Shown one piece after another: positions 11,803-16,190 of a stretch of 64,000 nt of DNA. Source of the stretch: Anaerovorax sp. IOR16 (GTDB lineage Bacteria > Bacillota > Clostridia > Peptostreptococcales > Anaerovoracaceae); assembly GCF_017168145.1 (NCBI RefSeq), contig NZ_JADQTL010000010.1, positions 620,001 to 684,000 on the forward strand, written 5' to 3'. How positions within the stretch are numbered: position 1 is the stretch's first letter; every line of letters begins with the position of its first letter. Position numbers and translations under genes: made by a program. The notes beneath the pieces are model-generated. The model was not told the DNA's origin, searched no databases, and saw only the letters and a list, made by a program, of their open reading frames with translations.

Positions 11803-12357
11803 ATGCTATTAGAAATATTTATGGTATTTTTCAAAATAGGGATGTTTACCATAGGCGGCGGATATGCGATGCTGCCAATTATACAAAAAGAAGTAGTAGA
11901 TACGAAAGGATGGATGACGGATCCTGAATTTTTAGATGCGATATCTTTAACAAACAGTTTACCAGGGCCTCTAGCTACAAATTCTGCAACCTTTGTCGGT
12001 TATAGTATAAAAAAGGTACCGGGGGCGATTGCTGCGGTATTGGGAGCCATAACACCATCGGTGCTTATTATTTTACTAATTGCTATGGTATTCAATAATA
12101 TTATGGACTACGCGGTTGTTCAATATATATTTGACGGAATTCGTCCTGCGGTAGTTGCATTAATTTTATATTCCGTCATTAAACTTGGAAAATCTGCAAA
12201 AGTTAAAGAAGATAGAAATTGGATTTTAGCAATAGCCTCATTCATTGCGGTGGCATTTTTAAAGATACATCCGATTATAGTGATCATATGCGCGGCAATG
12301 GTAGGTATTTTCTTTAAAAAGATAAAAACAGAAGAAGATAGAAAAGGGGGCGAATAA
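11803..12357 (+). CDS. Chromate transporter family protein, first half
   Basis: A 184-residue short-chain CHR family protein. It shows the family N-terminal signature GGGYAMLPIIQKEVVDTKGW and the LPGPLATNSATFVGY segment, then four or five hydrophobic helices with IRPAVVALI. Short CHR proteins work as pairs encoded side by side, and the partner follows 2 bp downstream. The presumed role is anion (chromate/sulfate-like) transport across the membrane; the physiological substrate in an anaerobe is uncertain. ATG 11803 follows aggaaataaaa. Confidence 0.82.
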   Translation: MLLEIFMVFFKIGMFTIGGGYAMLPIIQKEVVDTKGWMTDPEFLDAISLTNSLPGPLATNSATFVGYSIKKVPGAIAAVLGAITPSVLIILLIAMVFNNIMDYAVVQYIFDGIRPAVVALILYSVIKLGKSAKVKEDRNWILAIASFIAVAFLKIHPIIVIICAAMVGIFFKKIKTEEDRKGGE

Positions 12358-12359
12358 AA

Positions 12360-12911
12360 ATGGAACTTTGGCTAAAGGTATGTTTGGCATTTGTCAAAAT
12401 TGGTGCCTTTTCATTTGGTGGGGGATACGCGGTATTGTCTTTTATTCAACAGGAAGTTGTGGATGGAAACCAGTGGATTTTACCTGAGGATTTTGTAAAT
12501 ATCGTAGCAATTGCAGAGATGACGCCTGGACCGATTGCAGTAAATTCCTCTACCTTTGTAGGGTTTAATCTTTTTGGACCGATTGGTGGAGTTGTTTGTA
12601 CGCTTTGTGTAATTATAGTGCCATTTCTGTTGGCATTATTGGTATCGGTATACTTTACAAAGTTTAAAAATAATTTAACTGTGAAAAATGCATTAAATGG
12701 AATTCGTCCTGCAGTAATCGGCTTAATTGCAGCATCTTGCTTTAGCATTGGAAAAATTTCTTTTGTAAATGTGTACAGCCTAATTTTCTTTGTAGTTGCT
12801 TTTTTCTTGGTTTATAAAATAAAATTGAATCCGATCATTACGTTAATGGTTTGTGGAGGGTTAGGAATCGTATTGTATCAGATTGCGTTACCATTAATCG
12901 GAGTTGCCTAA
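12360..12911 (+). CDS. Chromate transporter family protein, second half
   Basis: A 183-residue short-chain CHR protein, paralogous to the preceding gene: FGGGYAVLSFIQQEVVDGNQ, MTPGPIAVNSSTFVGF and IRPAVIGLIAA occupy the same relative positions. The ATG at 12360 lies 2 bp after the stop of the first half with agggggcg as ribosome binding site, so the two are translationally linked and probably form a heterodimer equivalent to a long-chain ChrA. A terminator hairpin follows at 12991. Confidence 0.82.
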   Translation: MELWLKVCLAFVKIGAFSFGGGYAVLSFIQQEVVDGNQWILPEDFVNIVAIAEMTPGPIAVNSSTFVGFNLFGPIGGVVCTLCVIIVPFLLALLVSVYFTKFKNNLTVKNALNGIRPAVIGLIAASCFSIGKISFVNVYSLIFFVVAFFLVYKIKLNPIITLMVCGGLGIVLYQIALPLIGVA

Positions 12912-13068: not shown

Positions 13069-13725
13069 TTATTTAATTAAAGTATAGATTTCTTCTACGT
13101 CTTTTTTTCTTGGACTCTTTAAATTGTCTTCTGGAACACCTAACGCCATCATAGTTGTTAGATAATATCCTTCCTTTTCAAATCCGATTTCATTTTTGAT
13201 TACAGTTTCTATTTCGTCCGCAGCGTAGTTTTGACTTGTCAGCCAGCAGGTACCATAGCCCAATTCATTGGCGCGAAGCGTTAAATTTTCTAATGCCGCA
13301 CCGATGTTTTGCATTCCGGGATTTCTTTGAAAAAGCTTGTCAGACAGGTGTCTTGGAGCATCAATTAGATGATATTCATAAAACCCACTTGGGAAATAGT
13401 CTTTTGCATACGTCAAAATTAATACGGGCGCATTTAGATAAAATAGAGTAAAGTTCTTTGCAAATTTACGGAAACGTAACGCTTTTTCTTCATCTAGTTC
13501 GTCCATTTTCTTTGCAATCTGTTCATTCTTTTCTTTAATCACATTTGCAATTTTTTGCAGTAGCTCATGATTTTTGATTGCGACAAAATACCAGTTTTGA
13601 CTATTCTTACCGGAAGGCGCAAGCCCTGCCGCTTCAATCAGTTTTTTTATGTCACTGTCAGGTACATCTTGAGATTTAAATTTTCTTACACTCTGTCGAT
13701 TCTGTATCGCTTGTATTACTTCCAT
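13069..13725 (-). CDS. Nitroreductase family FMN-dependent oxidoreductase
   Basis: A 218-residue nitroreductase-family protein (NAD(P)H:FMN oxidoreductase fold). The N-terminal IQNRQSVRKFKSQDVP is the usual phosphate/FMN-binding start, followed by AAGLAPSGKNSQNWYFVAI, and near the C terminus GYGTCWLTSQN and MMALGVPEDN, all standard positions. The natural substrate is unknown; members reduce quinones, nitro compounds or flavins. The start ATG has aaaggagtaactaca upstream. It lies 68 bp downstream of the MocR-type regulator on the same strand, so read-through is possible. Confidence 0.85.
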   Translation of the reverse strand: MEVIQAIQNRQSVRKFKSQDVPDSDIKKLIEAAGLAPSGKNSQNWYFVAIKNHELLQKIANVIKEKNEQIAKKMDELDEEKALRFRKFAKNFTLFYLNAPVLILTYAKDYFPSGFYEYHLIDAPRHLSDKLFQRNPGMQNIGAALENLTLRANELGYGTCWLTSQNYAADEIETVIKNEIGFEKEGYYLTTMMALGVPEDNLKSPRKKDVEEIYTLIK

Positions 13726-13793: not shown

Positions 13794-15242
13794 TTAGTTT
13801 GTTGTTTCCGAACTTTGTTGTAAAATTTCTGAAAATGATTTAATGGCTGAGTCCAATTCTTCGAGTGGGACCCTAGTATAATAAAAAATAAGTAAGGCAT
13901 TTTCTTTTCTGTTTTGTTTTTCAATTTGGTTGGCCGAGACCGGGGTCATCGGAAGTCGTTTTTTTATTGCCTTTGCACAGAGCGTTTCTATGGTTTGATT
14001 TGATTTAAGCGGAACTTCCAAAAGCATGTGTAAGCCTGAGGTATTGCTGAGTACCTTAACTTGGTTTTTTAAATATTTTTTTAGGCTTTGTGTAGCAATT
14101 TGTATTTTTTGAGAATAAAGGTTTCTAAGTTTTTTAATGTTGGTTTGATATAACCCTTTTTCCATATAAAGTGCGAGTGTCATTTGCTCTGTTTTAGAAC
14201 AAGTTTGGTTATATCCTCCGAGAACTTCTTCAAAAAGTTTAAGCATAGGCTCCGGCAGAACCATATAACTAATCTTTATGGATGGAAATAGGGTAGAAGA
14301 AAAAGATCCTAGATAAATGACTCTTCCTTCTTCATCCAAACCTTGAAGAGAAGGAACGGCTTTTCCAAAATAGCGAAGCTCACTGTTATAATCGTCTTCA
14401 ATGATAATGCTATTGTTTTGCGATGCCCAATCTAAAAGTGCATAGCGGCGGCCGATGGGCATAATTGATCCGGTTGGAAACTGATTGGAAGGACTTACAT
14501 AAGCAACGGACTTTATATTTGCTGGTAATTTTTCGATTTGAATACCATCCTTTAAAACCGGCACCAGTGACATTTTAAAGCCACGGGTTTGAAAAATATC
14601 TTGAATTGGGACATAACCGGGCTCTTCAAAAGCCACGTATTCAATTCCTAAACGGTTTAAAATAATGCAAAGAAGACCGGTCAATTGTTGGGTTCCGGCA
14701 CCAATCACAATTTGCTCCGGTGTACAGCGCACACCCCTTGCTTGGTAAATATATTTTGAAATTTCATATCGCAAGGGAGCTTCTCCTCTCGGATCTCCTT
14801 CTAGTAAAAGAAAGTTTGAATAATCAGTGAGAATTTTATTAGTGCATTTCTTCCATTTTATAAAATCAAAAGTAGCAGAATCGTAATAAGTTCCTTCCAA
14901 TGCTGTATTATCTAAGTAGGAGAGACTGCCAAAGGCTGTTTCGCAATCTTTGGGAATCAGATGCTTTGTGTTTCTGTTTTTTCCTGGTTCTGACGGAATG
15001 CTGCAAACATAGTAACCAGACTGAGGTTTGCTGATAATATAACCTTCCGTCAGCAATTGATTATAAGCCAAATCAATGGTTGTAACGCTCACTCCAAGTT
15101 GTTTTGACATTGACCTCAAAGAGAGAAGTTTTTCACCTGGAAGAATACCACCGGTTAAAATAGCATTTCTAAGGTACAAGTATAGCTGCAAATATAATGG
15201 TGTTGTATCTTCATAGTCAAAATTGGGTGCAATCAATTGCAT
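13794..15242 (-). CDS. MocR-type (GntR/aminotransferase) transcriptional regulator lacking the PLP lysine
   Basis: A 482-residue fusion of an N-terminal GntR winged helix (residues ~10-80: PLYLQLYLYLRNAILTG, LLSLRSMSKQLGVSVTTIDL) and a fold-type I aminotransferase domain, the MocR/GabR/PdxR architecture. EDDYNSELRYFG and SPSNQFPTG are typical PLP-pocket segments. However, the segment that carries the Schiff-base lysine in this family (FSKT) reads FSST here, with Ser at residue 316 (codon 14295-14297). Start: ATG 15242 is preferred, because the upstream in-frame ATG (15249-15251) abuts the aaagga site. It is divergent from an ECF S-component gene, which it probably regulates. Vitamin B6 sensing (PdxR-like) is a plausible but unproved role. 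Confidence 0.85.
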   Translation of the reverse strand: MQLIAPNFDYEDTTPLYLQLYLYLRNAILTGGILPGEKLLSLRSMSKQLGVSVTTIDLAYNQLLTEGYIISKPQSGYYVCSIPSEPGKNRNTKHLIPKDCETAFGSLSYLDNTALEGTYYDSATFDFIKWKKCTNKILTDYSNFLLLEGDPRGEAPLRYEISKYIYQARGVRCTPEQIVIGAGTQQLTGLLCIILNRLGIEYVAFEEPGYVPIQDIFQTRGFKMSLVPVLKDGIQIEKLPANIKSVAYVSPSNQFPTGSIMPIGRRYALLDWASQNNSIIIEDDYNSELRYFGKAVPSLQGLDEEGRVIYLGSFSSTLFPSIKISYMVLPEPMLKLFEEVLGGYNQTCSKTEQMTLALYMEKGLYQTNIKKLRNLYSQKIQIATQSLKKYLKNQVKVLSNTSGLHMLLEVPLKSNQTIETLCAKAIKKRLPMTPVSANQIEKQNRKENALLIFYYTRVPLEELDSAIKSFSEILQQSSETTN

Positions 15243-15263
15243 AACAAACATTCCTTTCTAAAT

Positions 15264-15345
15264 AAAACTGTAGTTATTTTTATTGTTTTTTTATAATTTT
15301 TCTTAGTATAACACAAACTGTATATAAATAAATAGTTGAAACTGA
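15264..15345. promoter_or_regulatory. Candidate MocR operator repeats
   Basis: The divergent intergenic region contains AAACTGTA twice (15265-15272 and 15315-15322) and a third AAACTGAT (15339-15346), all in the same orientation. MocR proteins commonly bind direct repeats between the regulator and its divergent target. The match is short and AT-rich, so chance is not excluded. Confidence 0.3.
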
Positions 15346-15401
15346 TTATTTTCATGAATACAATGATTCGTTATGATAGAAAAAGAGCGAGGAGGTACGA
15401 C

Positions 15402-16190
15402 ATGACTGTAGATAATAAAGTAAATAAGATGATTTTAACGGGATTGATGATGGCGTTAGTTACGGTTGCAACAATGATTATTCAGGTGCCCATTCCGTTT
15501 ACCAATGGATACATTCATTTGGGAGATAGTATGATTTTTCTGTCCGTGTTGATCTTAGGATGGCGTTACGGTGCGATTGCCGCTGCTGTAGGTTCGGCGC
15601 TTGGTGATCTGATACCGGGTTATATTCATTGGGTACCATGGACCTTTTGTATCAAAGGATTAATGGCTGTTTTTATGGGAATTGCAATTGAAAAATGTAT
15701 GAGTAGTAAAAAAAATACTGGTATTCTAGCAATCATTACTGCTTTTGTATGGATGGGATTTCAGGCTATGGTTCAATTCGTATTAAATGGTGCAGCGACC
15801 AATAACCCTCAATCTCTTCTTGGAGAAGATGTTGAAACGTTGAGTGAACTGGGTACTTTTTTAACAGGTGTCCAGGGGAAGTTGATGCTTACAACGATTT
15901 TAATTCCGGTATTTTTAATTATCATAGCAATTTATGTACGTCAAAAAGAGCATTTAATTATTCCGGTTTATGAAATATTAGCTATGACGATAGCAGGTTT
16001 ATGGATGGTCATGGGTTATTATGTGGCAGCTGGTATCATGTATGGAAACTTTGCAGTTTCAGCTTTTAGTATTCCTTGGAATGTCGTGCAGTTTGCATTA
16101 GGCTTTTTCATTGCCATGGTGATTGCGGCGGCATTGCTGAAAACGTCGGCATCTAAGTATTTTACGTATGGAATTATAAGAAAAAAATAA
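15402..16190 (+). CDS. ECF transporter S component (substrate-binding membrane subunit)
   Basis: A 262-residue hydrophobic protein with 6-7 transmembrane helices. The start MTVDNKVNKMILTGLMMALV and the IQVPIPFTNGYIHLGDSMIF, GSALGDLIPGYIHWVPWTF pattern are characteristic of ECF-transporter S components, which bind a vitamin or metal and work with a shared EcfAAT module encoded elsewhere. ATG 15402 is chosen over the upstream TTG/ATG because gaggaggtacgac precedes it directly. The divergent MocR regulator suggests a pyridoxine-type substrate; queuosine or riboflavin precursors cannot be excluded from sequence alone. There is an unusual loop of ~50 residues in the middle (NGAATNNPQSLLGEDVETLS). 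Confidence 0.78.
   Translation: MTVDNKVNKMILTGLMMALVTVATMIIQVPIPFTNGYIHLGDSMIFLSVLILGWRYGAIAAAVGSALGDLIPGYIHWVPWTFCIKGLMAVFMGIAIEKCMSSKKNTGILAIITAFVWMGFQAMVQFVLNGAATNNPQSLLGEDVETLSELGTFLTGVQGKLMLTTILIPVFLIIIAIYVRQKEHLIIPVYEILAMTIAGLWMVMGYYVAAGIMYGNFAVSAFSIPWNVVQFALGFFIAMVIAAALLKTSASKYFTYGIIRKK

Follow-up and report, generated by a model that had tools for sequence, protein, structure and literature searches.

A lysine-less clade of MocR regulators related to PdxR and its predicted link to vitamin B6 uptake

The regulator studied here is encoded on the minus strand of an Anaerovorax sp. IOR16 contig, at positions 13794 to 15242 of the window, a term that we use for the whole 64,000-nucleotide stretch analyzed. 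It belongs to a group of MocR proteins that lack the lysine through which these regulators bind PLP, and sequence comparisons place the group as one clade that is sister to the vitamin B6 regulator PdxR. We consider it probable, with moderate confidence, that this clade controls the uptake and salvage of vitamin B6, presumably in the form of pyridoxamine, and that it senses a B6 vitamer non-covalently. MocR regulators are described as PLP dependent by virtue of one lysine, and a natural clade without this residue separates vitamer recognition from aldimine chemistry. Lys312 is reported to be conserved across all MocR/GabR clusters (PMC6677901). No lysine-less MocR regulator was recognized in the literature searched, which mostly excluded subscription papers, so that an earlier mention is possible.

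The regulator and its lysine site

Counted from the first ATG, the regulator ORF comprises 485 amino acids (positions 13794 to 15251, minus strand), and a second in-frame ATG gives the form spanning 13794 to 15242. By eye, a ribosome-binding-like AGAAAGGA abuts the first ATG directly and lies 9 bases ahead of the second one. Because of this spacing, the start at 15242 was accepted, with 15251 as the alternative. Pfam assigns a GntR-type winged helix-turn-helix (wHTH) domain (15006 to 15197, minus strand; residues 19 to 82 counted from the first ATG) and an Aminotran_1_2 domain, which together make up the MocR/GabR architecture, and the top NCBIfam model is PdxR (NF052282), with a score of 449 bits and a curated cutoff of 320. 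An AlphaFold (AF2) model, based on a 27-row alignment and with a mean pLDDT of 85.2, matched GabR best (Z 40.9, 2.3 Å, 349 residues) and also matched PdxR from Bacillus clausii (7pq9; Z 40.0, 34% identity over 355 residues). As predicted by this model, the wHTH and the fold-type-I aminotransferase-like fold are retained despite the lost lysine.

The motif at the lysine site reads GSFSSTLFPSIKISY, and in a phmmer alignment the window serine is found opposite the lysine of GabR and of B. clausii PdxR, with GSFSS aligned to GTFSK and GAFSK, respectively. The first-pass annotation of this DNA, which had proposed that a serine at residue 316 replaces the PLP lysine within an FSST motif, is thereby borne out; the residue is number 316 from the second ATG and 319 from the first, and its codon is TCT (14295 to 14297, minus strand). 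The segments EDDYNSEL and SPSNQFPTG, described there as kept, are both present in the window protein.

Relatives were collected in a scan of species genomes, and the best 80 of 85, together with the window protein, form our first sample; all counts out of 46 below refer to the lysine-less proteins of this set, including the window protein. The 45 closest of the best 80 of 85 relatives all lack the lysine and the remaining 35 all have it, which answers the annotation's suggestion that close homologues be aligned. The residue at this site is Ser in 42, Pro in 3, and Thr in 1 of the 46 proteins and Lys in none, so that the feature on which covalent PLP binding by MocR/GabR proteins depends is missing from the window protein and from its clade; identity to the window protein ranges from 40 to 64%. 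Going from AAA or AAG to TCT takes three base changes, and since the 45 closest relatives (best 80 of 85) share the loss, a read error is excluded. With an intact ORF and a clade-wide loss, the suspicion of a sequencing error or a pseudogene was rejected with near certainty. The annotation had further noted that a downstream LR becomes IK; this holds for the window protein but is not a trait of the clade, in which the basic residue 7 positions after the lysine site is Arg in 26 and Lys in 20 of the 46 proteins (best 80 of 85).

A maximum-likelihood tree built from 83 rows placed the lysine-less proteins on one side of a branch (support 100/98), with one change of state. The 37 Lys-bearing rows include two paralogues from the window's own genome, L082 and L083; three others, L084 to L086, were excluded from both the Lys-bearing and the lysine-less pocket counts. 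A second sample covered 118 genomes of the same order and gave 31 matches at an E value of ≤1e-90; it overlaps the first sample, so that the counts are not additive. Among the 29 non-window loci read, the site was Ser in 20, Thr in 3, Ala in 1, and Lys in 5, and within the window's own family a lysine-less copy was found in 18/18 other sampled genomes (17 Ser, 1 Ala). In a second tree, which included second-sample loci and omitted 15 Mogibacterium-type rows, the lysine-less proteins (55 of 97 rows) again formed one side of a branch, with an SH-aLRT value of 99. The window's own genome also encodes two more MocR-type proteins, with Leu at the lysine site, reading SYTLIFP (L105:4138-5643, minus strand; G000 C8) and SFALTFA (L106:4184-5704, plus strand; G000 C3). 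By eye, the latter gene is located upstream of apparent ornithine carbamoyltransferase, arginine deiminase, and carbamate kinase genes.

The remainder of the pocket is strongly conserved. The GabR numbering of D279, Y281, F250, Y205, R207, H400, and K312 was taken from PMC6677901, and other positions were counted along the alignment. All 46 proteins (best 80 of 85) have the equivalents of D279, the Asp that contacts the pyridine nitrogen, and of Y281, together with the Ala, Gly, and Gln of the phosphate loop; the residues invariant among them include A185, G186, Q188, E285, D286, D287, Y288, and F317. The F250 equivalent is Phe in 44 and Tyr in 2, and the Y205 equivalent is Tyr in 45 and Phe in 1 of these proteins (best 80 of 85). 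Among the ring and phosphate contacts examined, the lysine is the sole residue lost throughout the clade. The position of GabR R207, which contacts the GABA carboxylate, is Pro in 44/46 proteins, and an aligned position that we take to be that of the second GABA-carboxylate Arg holds Arg in 14/46 and Gln in 29/46 (best 80 of 85 in both cases).

In 23 lysine-less loci, all Mogibacterium type (L019 to L035 and L039 to L044), the protein is lengthened to 563 to 790 amino acids by a C-terminal class IV aminotransferase domain, with the L039 and L044 proteins being partial at contig ends. PF01063 was detected in both fusion proteins scanned, and a shared EGSRSN motif is present in 22/23. The expected motif with what is presumably the catalytic Lys of the class IV domain was seen in 19/23; L020, L023, L027, and L035 were not resolved by the patterns used. 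Three of the proteins, L041 to L043, have lost the wHTH and have Pro at the lysine site. In the genomes G040 and G042, which carry wHTH-less copies, an FSST regulator that does have a wHTH is encoded as well; it adjoins an ECF S component gene, after which come two ABC ATPase genes.

Predicted operator and adjoining transporter genes

Between the regulator gene and a divergent gene for an ECF transporter S component, we predict an operator (15312 to 15371, minus strand) with three boxes at fixed spacing, TGTA N14 CAGTT N19 CAGTT. Its layout of two direct boxes and one inverted box matches the commonest layout of MocR operators, which consists of two direct boxes and one inverted box with TGT (PMC5320631). 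Each upstream region was scored with a 60-base matrix made from the sites of the other regions. The window site reached 29.6 bits in this leave-one-out procedure, and 36/39 upstream regions of lysine-less loci exceeded 20 bits, the best of 780 mononucleotide shuffles being 6.3; the scores are raised by the many closely related rows. The 39 regions leave out 7 of the 46 lysine-less loci, for which no start was found. For two of these seven, L019 and L015, scanning the whole locus without leave-one-out scoring gave 36.1 and 29.6 bits. A strict regular expression matched 21/39 regions, and the position matrix was used instead. A promoter scan of 15200 to 15420 gave two sites, about the number found in shuffles, and the short box ACAGTTT by itself was not enriched in the window.

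The divergent S component gene (PF07155) is located at 15402 to 16190 (plus strand), with ATG 15402 being the likely start and TTG 15336 the start in the ORF list. Such a gene adjoins the regulator gene in 38/46 lysine-less loci (best 80 of 85). As for the other eight, L039 and L044 start inside the regulator gene, L041 to L043 are the wHTH-less paralogues, and L016, L018, and L037 have other neighbors, these last three having neither an adjacent S component gene nor an operator of their own in the first sample. In the second sample, with a flank of about 1.5 kb, an S component gene was found in 15/24 and an operator above 8 bits in 18/24 lysine-less loci.

Part of this arrangement is shared with relatives that have kept the lysine. 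Of the Lys-bearing loci in the first sample (35; best 80 of 85), a divergent S component gene occurs together with an operator (20 to 36 bits, from a matrix that excluded these loci) in 10, and both are missing from the other 25, one of which, L050, has just 165 bases upstream. In the second sample, all five Lys-bearing loci (L175 to L179) have an S component gene in the flank and no operator above 8 bits. Since some Lys-bearing relatives have the same operator and S component, the circuit is probably older than the loss of the lysine; most simply, the pairing of regulator and transporter, and partly its DNA code, predate that loss. For the same reason, the circuit alone fails to explain why the lysine was lost. 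A weaker operator-like site (14.4 bits) was also noted at L104:5134-5193 (minus strand), near L082, where an ABC ATPase gene ends; downstream of this site, beyond a 144-amino-acid ORF, is another PdxR-type gene, the second one with the lysine.

The only solved relative found for the window S component is HmpT (chain 4hzu_S; E value of 3.4e-6), which is reported to have copurified with pyridoxamine identified by mass spectrometry (PMC4860826). When the HmpT pocket residues were mapped by hand onto an alignment of 36 S components, W76, Y120, N140, and Q143 were found to be retained in 34, 36, 35, and 36 of them, respectively. The other three positions are altered, with E41 being Asp in 35, H84 being Lys in 35, and Q87 being Met in all 36. 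Given these replacements, the transported vitamer may differ from that of HmpT.

Several further neighbors were noted. Directly downstream of the regulator gene is a nitroreductase family gene (13069 to 13725, minus strand), and the same protein cluster occurs next to the lysine-less regulator in L004, L007, L009, and L018. Two adjacent half-size genes at 11803 to 12911 belong to the chromate transporter family. In L148 and L150, two ATPase genes, resembling an ECF module, follow the operator-bearing S component gene.

Allowing at most 2 mismatches, a genome-wide search for the operator pattern found 13 hits, compared with 11 for a reversed-pattern control, and the sole perfect match is the window site. 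Ten of the 13 hits were scored with the full matrix, and only the window site (37.5 bits) and C9:104102-104148 in the same genome (29.2 bits) were above 20. The latter precedes genes for a second S component of 178 amino acids (ECF-S 2) and a class V aminotransferase of 378 amino acids. HmpT is likewise the only solved relative found for ECF-S 2 (E value of 1.5e-14), which departs from it at E41 (Asn); the H84 site is Lys or Val across the S components. The top NCBIfam match of the aminotransferase is pyridoxamine–pyruvate transaminase (NF046070), with 249 bits, under the cutoff of 600. Its best PDB match is 2z9u, an entry listed as an aspartate aminotransferase, which we take to be the pyridoxamine–pyruvate transaminase of M. 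loti. The enzyme is present at 50 to 100% identity in 5/45 carrier genomes, and an operator is nearby in all five (29.2, 27.8, 24.9, 20.4, and 16.1 bits). At the nine loci whose class V enzymes are more distantly related, no score exceeded 8 bits. In G016 and G018, in which the regulator has neither an adjacent transporter gene nor an operator of its own, the site precedes the transaminase-like operon, and its position there suggests control in trans. Going by sequence matches, both an HmpT-related S component gene and a pyridoxamine transaminase-like gene are thus preceded by the predicted operator.

Vitamin B6 context and possible ligands

The window's own genome also carries pdxS, from which the gene of a Lys-bearing PdxR (L083) diverges, separate from the lysine-less regulator; on this basis, the genome probably makes B6 and keeps both types of sensor. 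Matches to the pyridoxal kinase model TIGR00687 in this genome were two, both weak and under the cutoff. PdxH was not found over the cutoff in any of the 22 carriers searched (of 45 carrier genomes), one weak match lying below it. PdxH requires oxygen, and for this reason pyridoxamine would need a transamination route. PdxS was over the cutoff in just 3/45 carrier genomes of the first sample, and an argument for auxotrophy was considered on this ground. It was dropped because PdxS absence is common across the order, with no enrichment in carriers: PdxS was present in 5/25 carriers versus 28/93 other genomes of the order (Fisher P = 0.45), with G160, one of the 31 order matches, having had no locus and being counted with the other genomes.

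In the mechanism that we favor, the regulator would bind the three-box operator, a conserved sequence, between its own gene and the S component gene and may also act at the second site, which is present before ECF-S 2 and the transaminase-like gene. By analogy with PdxR, a shortage of B6 would lead the regulator to repress itself and to activate vitamer uptake and salvage, and binding of a B6 vitamer would shut this activation off. PdxR itself is described as activating its target when B6 is low and repressing its own gene, with PLP as an anti-activator (PMC11619246). The vitamer would have to be held non-covalently, because the aldimine lysine is gone and the ring and phosphate contacts stay. 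PMP or pyridoxamine is a plausible best single candidate for the ligand, with weakly and non-covalently bound PLP coming next and being nearly as likely. The amine form is favored because aldimine formation with Lys is in any case not open to PMP or pyridoxamine and because this form fits the target genes, and the content of the regulon tilts the reading toward amine vitamers. This is broadly what the first-pass annotation had left open: its options of non-covalent PLP or another vitamer are favored by the kept pocket and the B6-type circuit, and both weigh against its third option, an unrelated ligand. A fuller version of the proposal, which we put forward tentatively, is that the clade has abandoned Schiff base chemistry and senses PMP or pyridoxamine directly. 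In bacteria that lack PdxH, it would control the uptake of pyridoxamine and the oxygen-free transamination of this vitamer, and the class IV aminotransferase fused to the sensor in one branch could make or consume the signal.

A different possibility, which is credible but which we rather doubt, is that the regulator is still a PLP sensor, with PLP held by ring stacking, by the contact of Asp with N1, and by the phosphate loop, and thus bound more weakly and released faster. The non-lysine PLP contacts examined are retained, and as the same operator and partner gene are found with some Lys-bearing relatives, the ligand need not have changed. However, EnuR carrying the Lys302His replacement is reported to have lost its PLP and to be a locked repressor (PMC8739950), and Lys-bearing proteins should outcompete a regulator without the covalent bond for free PLP. 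A further possibility is a ligand-blind regulator, in which loss of the lysine in a PdxR background would lock the protein on and make transporter expression constitutive. In its favor are the locked EnuR mutant and the modeling of PdxR as an activator when PLP is absent (PMC11619246). We nevertheless regard such a blind relic as unlikely, since the other pocket contacts (D286, Y288, Q188, and the phosphate loop) are near-invariant in 46 proteins with 40 to 64% identity to the window protein (best 80 of 85).

It is also conceivable, but quite unlikely, that the pocket takes a preformed PLP-amino acid (external) aldimine or another amine-containing ligand, as GabR does. The titles of structure entries indicate that GabR responds via an external aldimine, and the putative second carboxylate position is Arg in 14/46 and Gln in 29/46 proteins (best 80 of 85). 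Against this, that site is mostly Gln, R207 is replaced by Pro in 44/46 (best 80 of 85), and no obvious gene for amino acid transport or catabolism was seen in the two operator-linked operons of the window's own genome. Finally, another lysine might form the aldimine, for which there are two candidates: K326, 7 residues past the lost lysine in the window protein, and K132, which is near-invariant in the lysine-less clade and not in Lys-bearing relatives. The K326 position is Arg in 26/46 lysine-less proteins (best 80 of 85), however, and K132 is located at the start of the aminotransferase-like domain, so that we consider this reading very improbable. Non-covalent sensing of a B6 vitamer, most plausibly an amine, is the interpretation that we prefer. 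The clade permits a direct test of the ability of a PdxR-type sensor to recognize PMP or pyridoxamine and offers a testable function for uncharacterized ECF S components (TIGR04002-like) and for the pyridoxamine transaminase-like operon.

Comparison with known systems

The window regulator resembles B. clausii PdxR (7pq9) in architecture, in fold, in its NCBIfam score over the cutoff, in having a divergent transporter gene as its predicted target, and in its multi-box operator, and differs from it in lacking the Schiff base lysine. While PdxR targets pdxST or pdxK, the predicted target of the window clade is an S component gene and, in some genomes, the pyridoxamine transaminase-like operon. 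With GabR of Bacillus subtilis, the clade shares the wHTH and fold-type-I domains as well as the D279 and Y281 equivalents (46/46) and that of F250 (44/46; best 80 of 85); in contrast to GabR, the equivalents of Lys312 and Arg207 are lost, and GABA genes were not recognized among the neighbors. The partner S components are similar to HmpT/PdxU2 (4hzu), a pyridoxamine carrier, in that four pocket residues are kept, but H84 and Q87 are changed, E41 is replaced by Asp, and the overall similarity is moderate (E value of 3.4e-6 for the window protein).
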